Shown: one piece after another, positions 4,122 through 37,406 of the stretch
Position numbering within the stretch: the stretch's first letter is position 1
Layout: each line of letters starts with the position of its first letter
Virus record (IMG/VR): IMGVR_UViG_3300036832_001280
Location: 1 to 40,566 of that record
Direction: 5' to 3' (one strand)
Source: a virus
Length of the DNA stretch: 40,566 nt
Notes under the pieces: model-generated
Seen by the model: only the letters and a program-made list of their open reading frames with translations
Database searches by the model: none
What the model was told of the DNA's origin: nothing
Made by a program: the position numbers and the translations under genes

Positions 4122-4307
4122 ATGGATCTAGAGCGGGCAAGTGAACCGGCGTCACGCGAGTCTCATAAACTCGAAAGGCTGTTCAACTCAGCAGCCCGCA
4201 ACCAATCCAGGTTTCAATATTGCGCGATTTGCACGCGCCAACTTCCTCCCAAATCGACTCACATCCTCTGCAATTGGTGTCGCATCGAATGCGGAGGATT
4301 TCCGTGA
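4122..4307 (+). CDS. Possible zinc-finger-like small protein, 61 aa
   Basis: Contains CAIC (about residues 34-37) and CNWC (about 50-53), two Cys pairs that could bind one zinc. The N-terminal half is polar and shows no motif. No ribosome site is seen before ATG 4122. Its stop overlaps the GTG start of the Q gene (GTGA at 4304-4307), which supports a coupled pair. Modest confidence because the N-terminal half is not convincing. Confidence 0.45.
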   Translation: MDLERASEPASRESHKLERLFNSAARNQSRFQYCAICTRQLPPKSTHILCNWCRIECGGFP

Positions 4308-29173: not shown

Positions 29174-29340
29174 GAGGATGGCTGCTTATGCTGTTTCTGA
29201 CCGGCTGCTGCCACATCGAGGAGCAGGGGCAGCACCAACTGGGGCTCGGACGATCTAATGATCCCCGCTGCCCTGTTTCTTCTCGCCTTCATCCTGAATG
29301 CGCTGATAGATCTCCTCGCGATGAACCTGAACGTCATTAG
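29170..29340 (+). CDS. Small lipoprotein, possible outer-membrane spanin, 56 aa
   Basis: Starts in an ATGA overlap. N-terminus [20 protein letters not shown] is a short signal peptide with a lipobox LTGC, lipid site at Cys13. The rest is polar and Pro/Arg-rich. Small lipoproteins in this place in phage genomes are often Rz1-type spanins, the outer-membrane lysis component. No partner inner-membrane spanin is recognised. The last 86 bases are antisense to csrA, so the C-terminal part may be weakly constrained. Confidence 0.5.
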
Positions 29341-29449
29341 GAGCTTTGATCCCCACGCGCACCTGATTGCCTCTAACGGCCAGTATGGTCACCTGAATGT
29401 GTTCGCCAATCATCACCGACTCACCGACTCTCCGTGTCAAGATAAGCAT
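29255..29449 (-). CDS. csrA: CsrA-family RNA-binding regulator, 64 aa
   Basis: Near-complete match to CsrA/RsmA by eye: [18 protein letters not shown] start, RGNQVRVGI (residues 26-34), [16 protein letters not shown] (36-51). The RNA-contacting residues known for the family, Leu4, Arg6, Arg7, Val42, Arg44 and Ile47, are all present. The family binds GGA in hairpin loops of mRNA 5' leaders as a dimer and blocks or stabilises translation. It is last in a three-gene leftward cassette; its ATG overlaps the stop of the triple-HTH gene (TAATG), with a GGAGAAAAG ribosome site. The phage may redirect host carbon, motility or biofilm regulation (inference). Confidence 0.95.
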
Positions 29450-30306
29450 TACTTTTCTCCGAGTGACTGCAACGCGAGCATAGGATACAGGATCAACTTA
29501 TCATCGATCCTCATCTTCCCCGATTGAACGCGAAGATTTCCCTCATCGCGCGCCATGCGCAAAAACACGATCGCATCGTGTTTCCCGTTCTTGGTGAGCT
29601 GAACGTCATCAACTATTGCGGGCGCTGATGCCGCTGGTCTATTGTGTCCGGTCTGCCCCAGTCCTCGACCCGCCACCCAATTCGACAACATCCCCGTCGA
29701 GATGCCCAACTGCTCCGCGACACCCATTGTCGTTTCCCCCGCTTTGACTCTGGCAATCGCTTTTTGTTTGTACTCCGCTGTGTAGGTCTGCCGCTCTCCC
29801 TTCCCCGTCTTCCCCCTCTTCCCTTCCGCGTATTGCCGCCGCACCTCCCACCCACTCGGCGCTTTGTGTGAGCCGAATTTCTTGTGCCAATTGCGGATCG
29901 AGGATTCATTGACCTTCAGCTTCTTGGCGAGCATAGCAATCGGTGTTTTTCCGCTCTGGAACTCTTCCACCGCTTTGCGTTTGACGTTGTCTGAGAGATT
30001 GGACGGTGCGTAATAGGGACGCTTGAGAGTCTTCTTAGGTTTTGGTTTGGCAACCGCCGGGGCTTTCCCCGTGACGTTTTTGTCGGCGAGCCACCGTCGC
30101 AGCATCGAGTTATGGACGCCAAGTTTCCTCGCGCCTAAGTGCGTTCCCAGTCCGCTCTTGCGCCACTTCTCAATAAGCGCACGCTTCTCTGCGACGCTGT
30201 AGTTGTGGCGGCGGCGAGTCTTCCTCCCTATCTTCTGCTGCGAGATTTTCTGCCTGAACTCCTCACCGGTTATCGTCGGCGTCTCTTCTGTAGTTGCGGT
30301 TTCCAT
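29449..30306 (-). CDS. Protein with three tandem HTH domains, 285 aa
   Basis: Three similar helix-turn-helix units lie at about residues 36-75 ([12 protein letters not shown]...[11 protein letters not shown]), 104-145 ([13 protein letters not shown]...[14 protein letters not shown]) and 175-212 ([13 protein letters not shown]...[11 protein letters not shown]). Each resembles the HTH of IS3-type OrfA transposase proteins. Basic linkers ([21 protein letters not shown]) separate them. No DDE catalytic domain is present. The C-terminal 60 residues ([20 protein letters not shown]) form a separate domain without recognised family. Likely a DNA-binding regulator that contacts an extended site. Coupled to csrA by a 1-base overlap. 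Confidence 0.7.
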
Positions 30307-30995: not shown

Positions 30996-32225
30996 ATGAG
31001 CAAAGCAAAATTCAAAGGACTGCTGACCGACAAGCAGATTGAGAACCTCGCGCCGACTGCCAAGCAGTACCGGGTGAGTGACGGCAACAAGCTGTCACTC
31101 CTCGTGATGCCCACGGGCAGCAAGCTGTGGCGCTTCCGTTTCAAGTTCGAGGGCCGCGAGCAGAACATGTCGCTCGGGATCTATCCCGGCGTCTCGCTGC
31201 AGAAGGCGCGCGAGTTGTGCGAGGAGGAACGCGTCAAGCTGCGCAACACCAAGCAGAATCCGATGCAGGTCAAGAAAGCGGTCACTGCCGGGTACAAGAA
31301 CACCGTCGATTCCCTCGCCACCGAATGGCAGAACAAGCTGCGCCATTTGACGGCAAGCAGCATGCTCGCGATTCAGAATCGTTACGAGAAGTGGGTGAAG
31401 CCTGAGATCGGCACGCGCCCCATCGATGCGGTCACGCCGATGGACATCTACGCGTTGCTGCAGATCATCGAGAAGCAGGAGAAATACGAGGCGATGAATG
31501 CCGTGCGCAAGGAGCTGAAGCGCATGTTCAGCCTCGCGATGCTGACCGGTCGCGCGAAGTTCAACCCGGCATCGGACTTAGGCGAAGCGTTGGGTAAGCG
31601 TGCGACCACCCCGATCGCGGCGATCATCGAGCCCAAGGCATTCGGTGGGCTGCTCAATGCCATCGACCGGTACAGGGGATACGCGACGACGACGATCGCG
31701 CTGCGCATGATGCCGCACTTGATGACGCGTCCCAAGGAGATGCGCGCAGGCCAGTGGTCGGAGATCGACTGGGACAACGCCCAGTGGAACATCCCGGCCT
31801 CGCGCATGAAGAAGCGGCGCGATCATGCGGTGCCGCTCTCGCGTCAGGTCCTCTCGATGCTCAAGGAGCTGCACACGCTCACCGGCACGCAGACTCTCAT
31901 GTTCCCGCAGGATAAGGATCCGACGAAGCACCTCGCGGATCGCACGGTGAATCGTGCGCTGGCGTTCATGGGGTACCAGGGCAAGCATGCGGCACACGGC
32001 TTTCGTTCCAGCGCCAGCTCGATGCTCACCGTCATGGGATTCAACAGCGATGCGATCGAGCTGCAGCTCGCGCACAAGATCCCCGGCGTGAAGGGCATCT
32101 ACATGCGCGATCAGTTGATTGATCAGCGCCGCAAGATGATGCAGGCCTGGTCCGATGCCATCGATGAGATGAAGCGCGGCGGCAAGCCGACGCAGCAGAA
32201 GCCTAAACTGCGTCTCGTTGCTTGA
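30996..32225 (+). CDS. int: Tyrosine integrase with DUF4102-type arm domain, 409 aa
   Basis: AGAGGA (30986-30991) precedes ATG 30996. Residues about 8-90 are the N-terminal arm-binding DUF4102 domain (LTDKQIENLAPTAKQYRVSD, LWRFRFKFEGREQNMSLG). Core-binding domain about 100-200. Catalytic domain: Arg245 (TRPKEMR), Lys about 272-273, HGFR with His334 and Arg337, His360 (LAHKIPG) and the nucleophile Tyr369 (GIYMR). All residues needed are present, so the enzyme should be active. It integrates the phage at a bacterial attB. Its end overlaps the convergent AlpA-like gene by 23 bases. Confidence 0.93.
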   Translation: MSKAKFKGLLTDKQIENLAPTAKQYRVSDGNKLSLLVMPTGSKLWRFRFKFEGREQNMSLGIYPGVSLQKARELCEEERVKLRNTKQNPMQVKKAVTAGYKNTVDSLATEWQNKLRHLTASSMLAIQNRYEKWVKPEIGTRPIDAVTPMDIYALLQIIEKQEKYEAMNAVRKELKRMFSLAMLTGRAKFNPASDLGEALGKRATTPIAAIIEPKAFGGLLNAIDRYRGYATTTIALRMMPHLMTRPKEMRAGQWSEIDWDNAQWNIPASRMKKRRDHAVPLSRQVLSMLKELHTLTGTQTLMFPQDKDPTKHLADRTVNRALAFMGYQGKHAAHGFRSSASSMLTVMGFNSDAIELQLAHKIPGVKGIYMRDQLIDQRRKMMQAWSDAIDEMKRGGKPTQQKPKLRLVA

Positions 32226-32397: not shown

Positions 32398-32669
32398 ACC
32401 TCACCCTTGGCGGCAGCACGCCGCTCTTTGACCGGGTGCCGCGACCGGCGCGGACGCTGCTCCAACTCTGCCAGTCCCGCCTTGCGCTGCTCATCGAAGA
32501 AGCGCGCCATCACTTGCCGGTCGATCACAATGCGCCGTCCCAATTTGTAGCTCGGCACAGGACAGCGGTCAGCCTGGATGGCACTGCGCAACCCCGTGAC
32601 CGACATGTGCAAGAGCTGCGCGGCCTCGGCTAATTCCATCCACGGTTTCTCCATTGCGTCCACCTTCAA
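32394..32669 (-). CDS. Excisionase-family HTH protein, 91 aa
   Basis: Carries the excisionase/HTH_17 layout: WMELAEAAQLLHMSVTGLRS, IQADRCPVPSYKLGRRIVID, RQVMARFFDEQ. The C-terminal tail is Arg/Lys-rich. With the AlpA-like gene it makes a pair of small DNA-binding proteins next to integrase. Which is the true directionality factor cannot be told. It overlaps its upstream neighbour by 4 bases. Confidence 0.75.
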   Translation of the reverse strand: MKVDAMEKPWMELAEAAQLLHMSVTGLRSAIQADRCPVPSYKLGRRIVIDRQVMARFFDEQRKAGLAELEQRPRRSRHPVKERRAAAKGEV

Positions 32670-33553
32670 AATATTCTGACCTTGGGATCCTCATCGGGGC
32701 GGATCATCACGTTCTCACGTTTCGCTTCGTCCTTGCCGCGCCGCCGCCAGTTCCATCCCTTGATCACCATTCGCATGCGTACCGCAATCGGCAGCTTCGC
32801 CACGCGCTGCTCGGCATCGCGGATGAAGATGTGGCGCAGCAGATACTCAGGATCCGTGCGCGCCAGGTTCTCCCCCGTGAACAGGTTGCGCATGAACGCA
32901 TCCGCCTGCTCCGAATGTTTGCGCTGAAACATTTCATAGAGCGCGGTGCCGCAGCCCAAGCTCATCGGGCGCGCCTCGCGCGGATAGCCGATCAATGTCT
33001 CGACGCAGGAGAACATGCTCGGGTGTTCCTTGACGTACTCAATCACATCGGTGTTCGAGAGCCGCAGGCGGCTGCGGGTGAAGCCGCGCTCCATCCGCAC
33101 GCACCACTGCGCAGCGGTCGCCACTGCCGTCACATGCGACTGCGCCTCGTCGTGATAATGCAGCGCGAGCGCATCAGCGCTGGTTCGCACGGCTCCCGTG
33201 TCGATCGTGCGAAACGCCTCGGGGCTGATGCCATACACCACCAGCGATTGAATCGGCATCCCGGCCTCGATGATGGCGAGCAGCCGGTGCTGCCCATCGA
33301 GGACTGCTTCATCGTCCGCGATCACGATCGCCTGCCCGTTCACCTGCCAGTGTTCGTTGGTGATCTCCTGGGCGAGGAATGCCACGTGGCTGCGGCGCAC
33401 AGGGCGGTTCAGGCGATTGCACTTGAGCCACGCAGTCGCGTCCTGCGGGCGGATCGTGATCACCTCCGCAATGATGTTCTTGTCCGTTCCCCAGATCTTC
33501 GCCGCATGCGGGAACTGAATGATCTTGGGTCCTGCGTTCACTTTATTTTCCAT
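32666..33553 (-). CDS. DGQHR/ParB-like protein, 295 aa
   Basis: Residues about 40-110 carry a ParB/DGQHR-like signature: HVAFLAQEITNEHWQVNGQ, DEAVLDGQHRLLAIIEAG. Related domains bind or cleave nucleotides or DNA (ParB N-terminal CTPase/nuclease-like, DndB-like). The C-terminal 150 residues are helical and Arg-rich, with no recognised motif. Proteins of this type occur in phage early regions without proven function. It overlaps the winged-helix gene by 16 bases. Role in replication or regulation is a guess. Confidence 0.6.
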   Translation of the reverse strand: MENKVNAGPKIIQFPHAAKIWGTDKNIIAEVITIRPQDATAWLKCNRLNRPVRRSHVAFLAQEITNEHWQVNGQAIVIADDEAVLDGQHRLLAIIEAGMPIQSLVVYGISPEAFRTIDTGAVRTSADALALHYHDEAQSHVTAVATAAQWCVRMERGFTRSRLRLSNTDVIEYVKEHPSMFSCVETLIGYPREARPMSLGCGTALYEMFQRKHSEQADAFMRNLFTGENLARTDPEYLLRHIFIRDAEQRVAKLPIAVRMRMVIKGWNWRRRGKDEAKRENVMIRPDEDPKVRIF

Positions 33554-33849
33554 ACGGTTTGTTCCCTGCCAGATGGTCCCGGCCTCGTGATGCCGCTCGC
33601 GATGATGAGGTCGTCCTCCTCAAGGTCGGAGAGGCGTTTATGAATCTGCTCGGGTGTCATGCCTAAGCGCGCAGCGATCTCGCTGTGTGTGGCTGAACCA
33701 TGATCGCGAATGCATTTGAAGATGCGAACGCACAGTGAGCCTGCTGTTTTCTCCATCGACTGCGCGGCAGCGACCGATGTCGCATGCCCGCGTTTGCGCG
33801 TGTGCTTACGCGTCCATGCCACCCAATCGGTTTGGCGTTCGTCTCCCAT
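33538..33849 (-). CDS. Winged-helix DNA-binding protein, 103 aa
   Basis: Residues about 40-100 form a winged HTH: RIFKCIRDHGSATHSEIAAR, GMTPEQIHKRLSDLEEDDLI, followed by a wing with GPSGREQTVWKI. The N-terminus is basic. It could be a transcription regulator of the early arm. TGATG overlap with the upstream gene. Confidence 0.7.
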   Translation of the reverse strand: MGDERQTDWVAWTRKHTRKRGHATSVAAAQSMEKTAGSLCVRIFKCIRDHGSATHSEIAARLGMTPEQIHKRLSDLEEDDLIIASGITRPGPSGREQTVWKIK

Positions 33850-34100
33850 CAGAACGGGATCTTGTCGTCAAAGTCGGGCTGCTGCGGTTTAGGTTGCTGC
33901 TGTTCTCCCAAGGGCTGCTGTTTCGGCTTGAAGCGCAGCCGCATGTACTTCATCCCGTCGCGCGTCTCGTTGATCCACGCATCGAGCCAGTATTCGATGC
34001 TGTTCACCTCGGCATTGCCGCGATAGTCCGCGCGGTTCGCATGGCCCTCCTTGTCGTTCTTGTACAGCACTCCCGAATTGTTGTTGTCAAACTTCGCCAT
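33849..34100 (-). CDS. Small protein with SSB-like C-terminal tip, 83 aa
   Basis: Start taken at ATG 34100 (MAKFDNNNSG); an in-frame ATG at 34118 would add six residues. Neither has a clear ribosome site. The body has VLYKNDKEGHANRADYRGN and VNSIEYWLDAWINE, a known type of small phage protein. The C-terminus is Gln/Pro-rich and ends PDFDDKIPF, like the acidic tip of single-strand DNA-binding proteins (DFDDDIPF). That tip recruits replication and repair proteins. No full OB-fold is evident. Encoded with exonuclease and ERF, so a role in recombination is likely. Confidence 0.65.
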   Translation of the reverse strand: MAKFDNNNSGVLYKNDKEGHANRADYRGNAEVNSIEYWLDAWINETRDGMKYMRLRFKPKQQPLGEQQQPKPQQPDFDDKIPF

Positions 34101-35526
34101 GGGGCACCATGAACTCATACGAGGTGAGTCCGTTCCTGGTAATGCTGCCGCTCAAATAGGTCATGTCGAGGATCCCCGACGGCAGACCCACATCACTGTC
34201 AACGATCGGCATGGGTCCCTTGCCACTGAAGACGTTCGAGCCATTGCGAATCAGCGTGAAGACCGGCGTGCCGACGGCAAGCGGCACACGGAAGCTCTGG
34301 ATGCCGCGATCGCAGTTGCGCTGCTTCACCTGCGCGCCGACTGCGATCTCAACGATCCCAGGCGTCATCAGGAAGGCAACCACCTGGATCTCATCGATCT
34401 CTGTAGTTCCACCAGTGGTCTCCACCGTGAAATCCGCGCTCTGTTGCGGATGCACGCACGGCAGTTGCATCTGCCGATACGCGAAGTAGAGGACATCTTG
34501 CGTGATCTCGGGCTGATAGCCCGTGGCGAAGAGTGTCGCGAAGAATGCGGTCAAGTCATAGAACCCAGTGCCGAGGGAGGGATTGAATGCGGCATTCGTG
34601 CAAGGGCAACACTGGCACGCCTCGCTGTAATCGTTCCACGTCACGAGCTGCACGAAATCGCAGCCGGTGTTGCTCGATGCGGTGAAGGAGTTCAAGAACG
34701 CGGCATAATTCGCGGCTTCCCAGAACTTCTTGGATTTAGGGCGCGACTGCTGCGGATCGACGGGCGACATGAACTTCAAGCCCGCCGCATGCGCCTTGTC
34801 GGGGTTCAAGGCTGCCGATGGAGCCGGTGTCGCGGTGCCCCAGGCTCCGACACCCCAGGAGACCGGGTTCAATCCACCCGCATCGCTCGGTCCGCCGACG
34901 AGCGTGGGCATGAACGCGACGTTGATGCCTGCGGCATTCAACTGATGGAACAGATCCGTCCAGAAGCTCAGGGGACGCGCAGGTGCGTTATAGGCAGTGA
35001 TCACCATGCGCCCATCACGGAGCCGCATCACGGAGTCAGACTGCGCACAGAGGGTGAGAATGTTGATGAAGTCACTCGTGTGCGCCGACGCCAGAGCATT
35101 CATGTCGGGCATCGGAATGATCTTGAAGCGCGGGTCCACTTCGCCCGCCGCCTGCAGCATCCACGGCACGGTGCCGGTGAGCCCATCGGACACGGACAGG
35201 ATGTTGTGGCAGAAGCCGGTGATGCCGCGCGAGATTGCCATCTCGATCTCACGCTTGAGGTTTGGGATCGAGTACACCTGCTTGGTGGGGCTTCCCTGCA
35301 TCGGTGGCACGGCGAGCGGGCGCGAGCGCAAGAACCCGCCGTACGCAGCGTGCTTGCCGCCCTCGCCGGTCGTGGTGAGGAACTGCACGTTGTAGTAGTC
35401 ATTCGGCGGATCGCGATTGTCGATCGACAGCGGAAAGCTCGGGAAGTAGTGGGCAAAGACTCGATTGTCGTAGTCCCACAGCGGCTTGAAGATAAACGGC
35501 AAGGCGTCATGTGCGGTCGGGATCAT
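34087..35526 (-). CDS. Glycoside hydrolase family 71-like enzyme, 479 aa
   Basis: GH71 enzymes cleave alpha-1,3-glucan (mutan, fungal wall glucan). Family-like features in order: VFAHYFPSFPLS (about residues 23-34), EIEMAISRGITGFCHNI (93-109), FKIIPMPDMNA with Asp141 where the family has an acidic residue, MVITAYNAP (174-182), INVAFMPTLVGG (201-212), QLVTWNDYSEA (293-303), FYDLTAFFATLFATGYQPEI (322-341), DVLYFAYR. The C-terminal about 120 residues form a beta domain (GIVEIAVGAQVKQ, FTLIRNGSNVFSG), also like GH71 proteins. No signal peptide. It overlaps exo by 4 bases and the SSB-tip gene by 14, so it is an operon member. Substrate here is unproven. Confidence 0.7.
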   Translation of the reverse strand: MIPTAHDALPFIFKPLWDYDNRVFAHYFPSFPLSIDNRDPPNDYYNVQFLTTTGEGGKHAAYGGFLRSRPLAVPPMQGSPTKQVYSIPNLKREIEMAISRGITGFCHNILSVSDGLTGTVPWMLQAAGEVDPRFKIIPMPDMNALASAHTSDFINILTLCAQSDSVMRLRDGRMVITAYNAPARPLSFWTDLFHQLNAAGINVAFMPTLVGGPSDAGGLNPVSWGVGAWGTATPAPSAALNPDKAHAAGLKFMSPVDPQQSRPKSKKFWEAANYAAFLNSFTASSNTGCDFVQLVTWNDYSEACQCCPCTNAAFNPSLGTGFYDLTAFFATLFATGYQPEITQDVLYFAYRQMQLPCVHPQQSADFTVETTGGTTEIDEIQVVAFLMTPGIVEIAVGAQVKQRNCDRGIQSFRVPLAVGTPVFTLIRNGSNVFSGKGPMPIVDSDVGLPSGILDMTYLSGSITRNGLTSYEFMVPHGEV

Positions 35527-36167
35527 GAATACGCTCCATCCATAATTAGTTGGTAGTGGTCATCTACCTCTTTTAAGAATTTCAGCGCCTCGGCCTCATA
35601 CTCGGCGAGCTGCGCGTTGTAGCGCTCGATCCGCACCCGCAGCATCTGCCGGTGGGCGGGCAATCGATCATCGAAGGAGATCAGGTCGCAGTAGGCAGCG
35701 CCCGACACCCAGAGGTTATGGCGCACCTGGGCGAAGTAGTCGGCTTGCAACTGCGTGGGGTCAGCGAGGTAGGACAAGTGCGTGGACATCTTGGGACACT
35801 TCAACTCCACGATGCCTGAGAACTCATTGATGTCACCATCGAGTGAGCAGCCGACCATCAGCTCCTCAGCGGACAGGAAGCCGGTGCGCCGCACGAGTTC
35901 ACCGTGCAATGCCTCGTACATCGCAAACGCCACGGGCTCAAGTTGATTGCCGCGTTCCATCTCCGCGTTGTGGTAGAGATTGTCCTGCGCTTCCCCGGCG
36001 ATGCGCTCGGCGACCAACTGCAGCCGGTAGTCGCGGCGTTGCACGGACTCCGATCCCTTGCGCCCCTGCGTCAAGACCATCTGTGCGCGCGAGCCGGTGA
36101 GCCTTCCTGCTCGCGCGCGTCGCCATTCGGGCGAGCGCTGCTCGGCGTCGATGACAGTAAACTTCAT
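35523..36167 (-). CDS. YqaJ/lambda-type exonuclease
   Basis: 214 aa. N-terminus VIDAEQRSPEWRRARAGRLT is the standard opening (Q-R-S-P-E-W). Core: ERGNQLEPVAFAMYE with Glu77, CSLDGDI with Asp110, and VELKCPK with Glu121 and Lys123, the PD-(D/E)XK catalytic set. The family digests one strand of double-stranded DNA 5' to 3' and hands the overhang to an annealing protein, here ERF. Starts in a 4-base overlap with the next upstream gene. Confidence 0.9.
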   Translation of the reverse strand: MKFTVIDAEQRSPEWRRARAGRLTGSRAQMVLTQGRKGSESVQRRDYRLQLVAERIAGEAQDNLYHNAEMERGNQLEPVAFAMYEALHGELVRRTGFLSAEELMVGCSLDGDINEFSGIVELKCPKMSTHLSYLADPTQLQADYFAQVRHNLWVSGAAYCDLISFDDRLPAHRQMLRVRIERYNAQLAEYEAEALKFLKEVDDHYQLIMDGAYS

Positions 36168-36304
36168 CGCTGCGCACTCCTGATGTCCTCCAACATCTCA
36201 AGCGAGCGCTTCAGACACCCATTGATGTGGTCGAGTGTGGAATTGATTTCTTCCAAGATGTCGCAGATCTTTTCCAACAGCTCCTCGGTGGTCGGAATAT
36301 TCAT
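36164..36304 (-). CDS. Small coiled-coil protein, 46 aa
   Basis: Starts MNIPTTEELLEKICDILEEI and continues as one amphipathic helix with heptad Leu/Ile spacing to the end. It overlaps ERF and exo by 4 bases each. The open frame extends upstream to 36475, but only as an Arg-rich shadow of ERF. Possibly a bridge between ERF and exonuclease; this is speculation. Confidence 0.6.
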   Translation of the reverse strand: MNIPTTEELLEKICDILEEINSTLDHINGCLKRSLEMLEDIRSAQR

Positions 36305-37035
36305 TGGGTTGCCGCCTCTGTGAATTTCGGCACGCTGCCCGCGTAGGCTTTGGTGTCGGCCCAGCGCTGCTGGTAGTGCAGCACGATGATGGCGCGATTC
36401 GCATCGCTCAATCCCTTCCACGCCTCGGCGAGGGCGGCGGTGCCGCGCTCCGATGCGGCGTGCAATTCGGCCCACACCTCTTGCAGCAGCGGCACCTGGA
36501 CGTCGCTCGTGCGTCCATCATCATCGTCGGCCTCGGCGACCGACATGCCGGTGACTGCGATCAAGGTGTAGCGCTGCAGGTAGTTGGTGGCACTGGCAAT
36601 CGCCTGAATGGAATTCTTGCCGCCGGATTGATCGGGCGCACTCGACAGCTCCACCGACTCTGAGTGCCCGCCGACGTGGGTCAACGTGCATTTCACCGTG
36701 ATCTTGTTGGCGTTGTCCTGGCTCATGCTCCATGCGTGGCTGAAGCCATGCTTGGCGAGCGCGGTGGAGATTTTGCTCGTGACCTCATCGTGGGTCGCAT
36801 GCATGTAGCTCGTTTGGCCGAAGCTCACGGTTTTGTTTTTGTGCAGCACCGGGGCATCGCGTTTGAATGCCACCTTGGCGATGGCAAAAGCCCGCTGTGC
36901 CTCGGCGCGGTCCCACCGGTCCTTCAGGTCCAAGAGTTTCTCCAACCGCCCCAGATCGAACTCAGGAGCTGTGGAGGCCCGGTCAATGATTCGCATGATC
37001 ATGTCGCCATCAGGAATCGTGGTCACTTCGTTCAT
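36301..37035 (-). CDS. ERF-family single-strand annealing protein, 244 aa
   Basis: ATG 37035 has GAGGAAA ahead and an ATGA overlap with the upstream stop. ERF core (about residues 40-165): AFAIAKVAFKRDAPVLHKNK, YMHATHDEVTSKISTALAKH, KITVKCTLTHVGGHSES and KNSIQAIASATNYLQRYTL, followed by an acidic stretch (AEADDDDG). ERF anneals complementary strands; P22 Erf circularises headful-packaged, terminally redundant DNA, which fits the packaging type inferred here. Confidence 0.9.
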   Translation of the reverse strand: MNEVTTIPDGDMIMRIIDRASTAPEFDLGRLEKLLDLKDRWDRAEAQRAFAIAKVAFKRDAPVLHKNKTVSFGQTSYMHATHDEVTSKISTALAKHGFSHAWSMSQDNANKITVKCTLTHVGGHSESVELSSAPDQSGGKNSIQAIASATNYLQRYTLIAVTGMSVAEADDDDGRTSDVQVPLLQEVWAELHAASERGTAALAEAWKGLSDANRAIIVLHYQQRWADTKAYAGSVPKFTEAATQ

Positions 37036-37211
37036 GGTTTCCTCGCGCCGTCGAATGGGCTGGGGGATCGGTGTGCAATGCGGCGGTGCTTCAAGCGGTG
37101 TTGGCGGATGAGGCGCGCGAGGGTGTCGGTCGCGATCAGGACGATCGACGCGGCGATGAGCAGCAGCACAAAGCCGAGGCAGATCCAGATGAAGATCGCA
37201 AAGACGTGCAT
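37032..37211 (-). CDS. Small membrane protein, 59 aa
   Basis: ATG 37211 lies 8 bases after GAGG (37223-37220); ATG 37217 and GTG 37235 are alternatives. One long hydrophobic segment (VFAIFIWICLGFVLLLIAAS and onward to ATDTL) followed by a basic Arg/His-rich tail. First gene of the leftward recombination operon. Function unknown. Confidence 0.6.
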   Translation of the reverse strand: MHVFAIFIWICLGFVLLLIAASIVLIATDTLARLIRQHRLKHRRIAHRSPSPFDGARKP

Positions 37212-37406
37212 GTTCATCACCTCGTTCGTTATCACTCACAGGGTGTACGTGAGCGTTCACGTGGTGTTTGCGCGGCGTTCATAACACTGCGCAAATCCCT
37301 ATAAACATAGGCTAAAACCACCGAAAGCGACGGAAGACTATGCTTCAGAAAAAAATAGTCAATTGGAATTGCATATTTTTTTTCGGCGACTATTCTCCAC
37401 ACCTCT
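37212..37406. promoter_or_regulatory. Divergent control region between recombination and cro/replication arms
   Basis: Contains several inverted repeats. ACGTGA/TCACGT lies at 37247-37262. TTTGCGC (37267-37273) pairs with GCGCAAA (37289-37295). AATAGTC (37354-37360) pairs with GACTATT (37388-37394), and another GACTA sits at 37336. A possible rightward promoter is TTGCAT (37369-37374), 16 bases, TATTCT (37391-37396). It lies between the AATAGTC/GACTATT arms, so Cro could bind there and block it. Operators are inferred from symmetry only. Confidence 0.6.

Follow-up and report, generated by a model that had tools for sequence, protein, structure and literature searches.

A predicted GH71 glycoside hydrolase in the recombination operon of a P22-like phage, with relatives in other viral contigs

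Background

Why would a phage carry, among its recombination genes, an enzyme of the GH71 family, which is known from fungi and bacteria and cuts alpha-linked sugar polymers? The question arises from a 40,566-bp stretch of viral DNA (here called the window), which is an entire IMG/VR record (IMGVR_UViG_3300036832_001280) and a single metagenomic contig. A sequence-only reading had proposed that a minus-strand gene of this phage encodes a full-length GH71 protein. We analyzed the family, fold, genomic setting and relatives of this gene, and weighed several explanations of its presence.

The GH71 reading frame and its product

The gene and its parts, all on the minus strand, are as follows.

34087..35526, minus strand: GH71 glycoside hydrolase gene, 479 aa, without N-terminal export region (Pfam PF03659, 101 bits; GH71 crystal structures matched by fold; N-terminal comparison with 72 bacterial homologues)
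35534..35541, minus strand: Shine-Dalgarno-like GGATGGAG, in the end of the exonuclease gene, 7 nt 5' of the GH71 ATG (read from the sequence)
34519..35463, minus strand: (beta/alpha)8-barrel catalytic domain, residues about 22-336 (AlphaFold2 model and DSSP; Foldseek to 8yfh/9fnf)
35284..35445, minus strand: beta1-alpha1 loop of about 54 residues (28-81: ...NDYYN...GEGGKHAAYGGFLRSRPL...) (DSSP of the model; alignment consensus; PMC12394665)
34630..34632, minus strand: codon of D299, predicted general base, equivalent to AnGH71C D265 and Agn1p D237 (alignment; invariant in 60 sequences; role from PMC12394665)
34621..34623, minus strand: codon of E302, predicted general acid, equivalent to AnGH71C E268 and Agn1p E240 (alignment; invariant in 60 sequences; PMC12394665)
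34138..34392, minus strand: C-terminal beta-sandwich, residues 379-463 (DSSP of the model; PMC12394665)

The ORF starts with ATG, ends with TGA and has no internal stops, and its GC3 and codon use are like those of the rest of the phage. A longer antisense ORF of 501 aa (34051-35556, plus strand) was rejected as an alternative gene: GC peaked at codon position 1, as would fit an ORF that merely shadows the GH71 frame.

PF03659 (GH71) was the one family recognized by Pfam in the 479-aa protein, with a near-full-length match (E = 8e-29; profile positions 13-374 of 375) whose 101 bits lie well above the curated cut-off of 34 bits, and the proposed family membership thus passed the profile check. 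A sequence search of the PDB gave GH71 structures (8yfh, 9m6l and 9fnf) as the matches of weight; no PHROGs family matched the protein. The AlphaFold2 model, built from 60 homologues with a mean pLDDT of 94, showed a barrel followed by a beta-sandwich, and in a Foldseek search of solved structures its six best matches were all GH71 chains, GH99 coming next. The C-terminal beta domain noticed earlier corresponds to the strands of the sandwich, a trait of GH71 that is missing from GH99 (PMC12394665).

The TWNDYSEA motif pointed out in the sequence-only reading is indeed present at residues 296-303, and the sequence alignment places in it the catalytic Asp-x-x-Glu that follows beta8 (D299/E302). 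In AnGH71C the equivalent D265 and E268 are essential by mutation (PMC12394665), and structure 9m6l carries Agn1p with the residue aligned to D299, D237, mutated to N. Six residues (D141, R262, E270, W297, D299 and E302) were invariant in 60/60 aligned sequences. The Asp141 segment singled out before is therefore real, but D141 does not belong to the catalytic dyad, formed by D299 and E302. On sequence and model, the 479-aa product is judged to be a full-length GH71 protein with both catalytic acids, and is predicted to be catalytically intact.

One feature departs from the fungal enzyme. DSSP of the model places the end of beta1 at residue 27 and the start of alpha1 at residue 82, so the short beta1-alpha1 connection of the AnGH71C type is absent; AnGH71C has no loop comparable to that of about 50 residues found between beta1 and alpha1 in GH99 (PMC12394665). 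The loop of the window protein is conserved in the bacterial and phage GH71 members, and hence splits subfamilies rather than excluding the protein from GH71. A GH99 identity was rejected, the first acid being D299 and not Glu, and the beta-sandwich being present. The activity of bacterial GH71s is yet to be investigated, this branch being biochemically uncharacterized (PMC12394665). For this reason, and because the loop is missing in the fungal enzyme, the name "alpha-1,3-glucanase" is used here only provisionally, as a hypothesis drawn from homology.

Phage and operon context

The neighbouring genes, and the integrase gene, are listed below.

36301..37260, minus strand: ERF single-strand annealing protein, ORF as listed, true start probably further downstream (PF04404, E = 7e-12; phrog_155, E = 1e-26)
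35523..36167, minus strand: YqaJ/RecE-like recombination exonuclease, upstream neighbour, 4-bp overlap with GH71 at 35523-35526 (PF09588, E = 8e-25; phrog_149, E = 4e-35)
33849..34100, minus strand: single-strand DNA-binding protein (SSB) ending DFDDKIPF, downstream neighbour, 14-bp overlap with GH71 at 34087-34100 (phrog_18154, E = 2e-10; homologue in ctXG6705)
33538..33849, minus strand: winged-HTH protein, same operon as GH71 (PF13412)
32666..33553, minus strand: ParB-like/unknown protein, same operon as GH71 (phrog_5931, E = 1e-53)
30996..32225, plus strand: tyrosine integrase (PF00589/PF13356)

The order of the early operon is ERF, exonuclease, GH71, SSB, HTH, ParB-like and excisionase-like genes. 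Pfam and PHROGs matches to the ERF-YqaJ-SSB neighbourhood bear out the phage recombination operon and the early position described previously. The 4-bp overlap with the exonuclease gene is likewise real; the 14-bp overlap with the SSB gene is an addition. The terminase, portal, scaffold and coat proteins are of the P22-like type. Judged from its gene content, the phage is temperate, since it has integrase and excisionase-like genes, and is related to Xanthomonas phage PBR31.

The sequence-only reading had suggested looking for GH71 at the same place in related phages, and there it did not appear: PBR31 and two environmental podoviruses, ct7QV12 and ctXG6705, have the SSB gene after the exonuclease gene, with no GH71 between them. 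GH71 is thus an insertion relative to its kin, and shows the absence from related phages that marks a phage cargo gene (moron). It is very improbable that it is an artefact, i.e., a host gene misassembled onto the phage contig or a degenerate remnant. The window is one metagenomic contig and the exact exonuclease-GH71-SSB place is known from one copy only, but the gene overlaps its neighbours on both sides, has phage-like codon use, keeps an open frame with all active-site residues, and recurs in eight other viral contigs, most of which have phage hallmark genes (see below).

A cargo gene might also serve lysogenic conversion, with GH71 expressed from the prophage so that the host can feed on alpha-glucan, or remodel it, in a fungal wall or biofilm. 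The integrase and excisionase-like genes of the phage fit this idea, as do the cellular GH71 relatives, which include soil bacteria with secreted enzymes; we nevertheless consider it improbable. GH71 is locked within the early operon, and operons of this kind are normally silent in lysogens of lambdoid phages. A promoter pattern scan performed no better than chance and gave no site above chance directly upstream of the gene, and lends no support to the lysogenic expression that had been envisaged. Moreover, a living lysogen would be unable to use the enzyme outside the cell because the protein has no export signal (see below).

Other parts of the window contain a tRNA-Met gene (anticodon CAT; 4133-4200, plus strand), a protein of 285 aa in which Pfam and PHROGs recognized several helix-turn-helix repeats of the transposase type and no catalytic domain (29449-30306, minus strand), and a 64-aa CsrA-like regulator (29255-29449, minus strand; phrog_9500, E = 2.5e-29). 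In bacteria, carbon storage and biofilm polysaccharide are under the control of CsrA, so a link between the phage regulator and the GH71 theme is possible. A lysis cassette was not found among the ORFs scanned in the window.

GH71 genes in other viral contigs

A tblastn search of 50,697 deposited phage records found no GH71 like the window copy or the two tail-associated copies described below. Single-sequence scans of viral and genome contigs gave no GH71 match either, and profile scans were needed; in 2.9 million viral contigs (IMG/VR) these converged on eight further GH71 contigs (L075, L003, L004, L005, L081, L090, L080 and L006). A literature search on GH71 in phages or as viral auxiliary genes found no relevant report. 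Given these results with deposited records and literature, and the lack of a PHROGs family, GH71 appears to be previously unreported in phages. A BFVD fold search with the GH71 model gave remote matches only and no phage GH71. The best of them, with TM 0.47 on the query and 10% identity, was to A0A218NJS6 from Picornavirales N_OV_137, a putative structural protein; this is possibly a GH99/GH71-like barrel in an RNA virus, or else a spurious match.

The copy nearest to that of the window, with 59% identity, belongs to L075, an HK97-type siphovirus. This phage has a terminase, portal, protease and tape measure of its own and no other gene in common with the window at the threshold used. The dN of 0.40 and dS of 1.51 between the window and L075 copies are consistent with purifying selection; most other GH71 pairs were saturated at synonymous sites. 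In L075 the GH71 gene is followed by an exonuclease-family gene (phrog_298, 7-bp overlap) and then by a second one (phrog_10477), and in L004 and L005 a weak VRR-NUC match adjoins GH71. L005 and the window have portals with 59% identity, but their GH71 proteins share only 44% and the L005 gene has a different genomic location, which suggests that the two phages acquired GH71 separately. The L005 gene also adjoins a GT2 glycosyltransferase gene, and that of L003 a methyltransferase gene. This methyltransferase ORF (L003:6305-7951) carries Hint and LAGLIDADG domains, an apparent intein.

Three kinds of genomic setting were seen for phage GH71 genes: an early operon, the lysis or late region, and fusion to a tail protein. 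In L090 the gene is downstream of a lysozyme gene and a spanin-like ORF. L080 encodes a 1267-aa tail protein (L080:8468-12271) with the order DUF2460-GH71-CHB_HEX/Fn3-legume lectin, which by its domains would be a modular phage depolymerase and adhesin; a second DUF2460-like gene lies just upstream of this fusion. In L006 the GH71 ORF lies between a tail-fibre gene and a tape-measure gene and is probably fused into a tail protein. The earlier statement that GH71 is not a lysis or virion gene hence stands for the position of the window gene but does not extend to these relatives. Both tail-associated copies lend some credit to a virion role, in which GH71 would be packaged or tail-bound for use at entry. 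For the window copy we regard such a role as most unlikely: it is neither part of nor fused to a tail protein, has no tail domain, begins only a few residues ahead of the catalytic domain and has recombination genes as neighbours.

N-terminal regions and cellular relatives

The N-termini of free-standing phage and bacterial GH71s differed completely. Seven free-standing phage proteins had N-terminal extensions of -6 to 0 residues relative to the window copy and lacked a strongly hydrophobic segment (12-residue mean at most 1.57), whereas 72/72 bacterial ORFs had at least 16 extra N-terminal residues with a hydrophobic stretch (mean at least 1.73, nearly all above 1.8); the test was a crude hydrophobicity scan and not SignalP, and some bacterial starts are uncertain, the longest ORF having been taken. 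The bacterial extensions are consistent with secretion or lipoprotein signals, and the lack of a signal peptide in the window protein, claimed before, agrees with this test.

In a tree of 60 proteins the window copy and seven other phage copies formed one clade (support 100/99), next to two GH71s of a soil Gammaproteobacterium MAG and one of Methylocapsa. The L006 copy was placed inside Actinomycetota and represents a second acquisition. The closest cellular relatives of the window protein (45-46% identity) are encoded in Centralia_MAG_79 by two genes 12 kb apart (L007 and L008), both with signal-like N-termini. Between them lies a locus for exopolysaccharide synthesis and export (Wzz, Poly_export, glycosyltransferase and flippase). 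This exopolysaccharide is a candidate natural substrate of the bacterial-branch GH71s. No further relative was found in 369 genomes from the class of the Centralia MAG. The genome scan relied on short patterns, and a closer bacterial or prophage copy may have escaped it. The sole match of a plasmid search was an 11.8-Mb Nonomuraea record listed as plasmid.

An early intracellular function would account for both the early expression and the missing export signal. Inside the host, cytoplasmic GH71 would attack a glycan or glycolipid intermediate, e.g., to prevent the assembly of capsule or exopolysaccharide (as superinfection control or receptor removal) or to disarm a defence. The early position beside nucleases in the window, L075, L004 and L005, the absence of an export signal in 7/7 free-standing copies, and the glycosyltransferase and methyltransferase neighbours in L005 and L003 speak for it. 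Cellular GH71s are extracellular, however, the tail-fused L080 copy of the same clade points to surface glycans, and we know of no cytoplasmic alpha-1,3-glucan in bacteria; we find this function unlikely. We are similarly doubtful that phages maintain a private signal-less GH71 lineage, early and intracellular, with its own specificity (the bacterial-type loop), directed at a glycan-based barrier or at the host's synthesis of surface glycans, and swapped between unrelated phages with recombination nucleases.

Proposed role

Our best reading, to which we give slightly better than an even chance, is that a bacterial-type GH71 was recruited by temperate and other tailed phages as a polysaccharide depolymerase, made early in the cytoplasm and released at lysis. 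Family, fold, catalytic residues, operon position, the missing export region and recurrence in unrelated phages are the observations that support it. The window gene would be cargo that entered an early (PL-type) recombination operon precisely at the junction of the exonuclease and SSB genes, and would be translated by coupling and from its own Shine-Dalgarno site. From the operon position, synthesis in the cytoplasm would begin with the onset of the lytic programme. Lacking an export signal, the enzyme would build up inside the cell until lysis releases it, as the lysis- and tail-associated relatives also suggest. Its targets would then be alpha-linked bonds, probably alpha-1,3-glucosidic ones, in the capsule or exopolysaccharide around neighbouring host cells, which it would cut by the inverting mechanism expected from its family (D299 as base, E302 as acid), and progeny virions may thereby spread more easily. 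Storage glycogen (alpha-1,4/1,6) is an unlikely target. Since relatives lie in a lysis region (L090) or in tail proteins (L080, probably L006), a common role on extracellular glycan, at lysis or entry, seems likeliest. As a counterpoint, early-operon placement is unusual for an enzyme released at lysis, and late placement would yield more product. Overall the findings suggest phage recruitment of GH71 to clear the slime around bacterial cells.

In its three settings, this small recurrent phage lineage offers a natural experiment in the recruitment of a polysaccharide-cutting enzyme by phages. It would open a way into the uncharacterized bacterial half of GH71, and could reveal soil bacteria with alpha-1,3-glucan-like coats and supply small soluble enzymes against alpha-1,3-glucan-like biofilms.

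Comparison with known systems

The fungal GH71 alpha-1,3-glucanases (AnGH71C, 9fnf; S. pombe Agn1p, 8yfh) have the same barrel with C-terminal beta-sandwich and the D-x-x-E at the end of beta8, with TM-scores of 0.77-0.80 on the target against the window model. Their identity with the phage protein is about 16-21%, and the latter has no signal peptide and carries the loop that AnGH71C lacks. Bacterial-branch GH71s (Gammaproteobacterium Centralia_MAG_79, Methylocapsa, Myxococcus and Nonomuraea) are closer, mostly 31-46% identical over the whole domain with the same loop and invariant residues, but have the hydrophobic N-terminal extension that free-standing phage copies lack. The GH99 endo-alpha-mannosidases/mannanases share the barrel and the position of the acid pair; their first acid is Glu instead of Asp and they have no C-terminal beta-sandwich (PMC12394665). 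Phage polysaccharide depolymerases (tailspikes and soluble forms) are likewise phage-encoded glycanases, and the L080 and L006 relatives lie in tail modules; the window copy, unlike them, is free-standing in an early recombination operon. Finally, the P22-like temperate podovirus PBR31, the best relative by portal, has the same genome layout (portal 44%, coat 53% and exonuclease 40% identity) and differs in having its exonuclease and SSB genes without GH71 between them.
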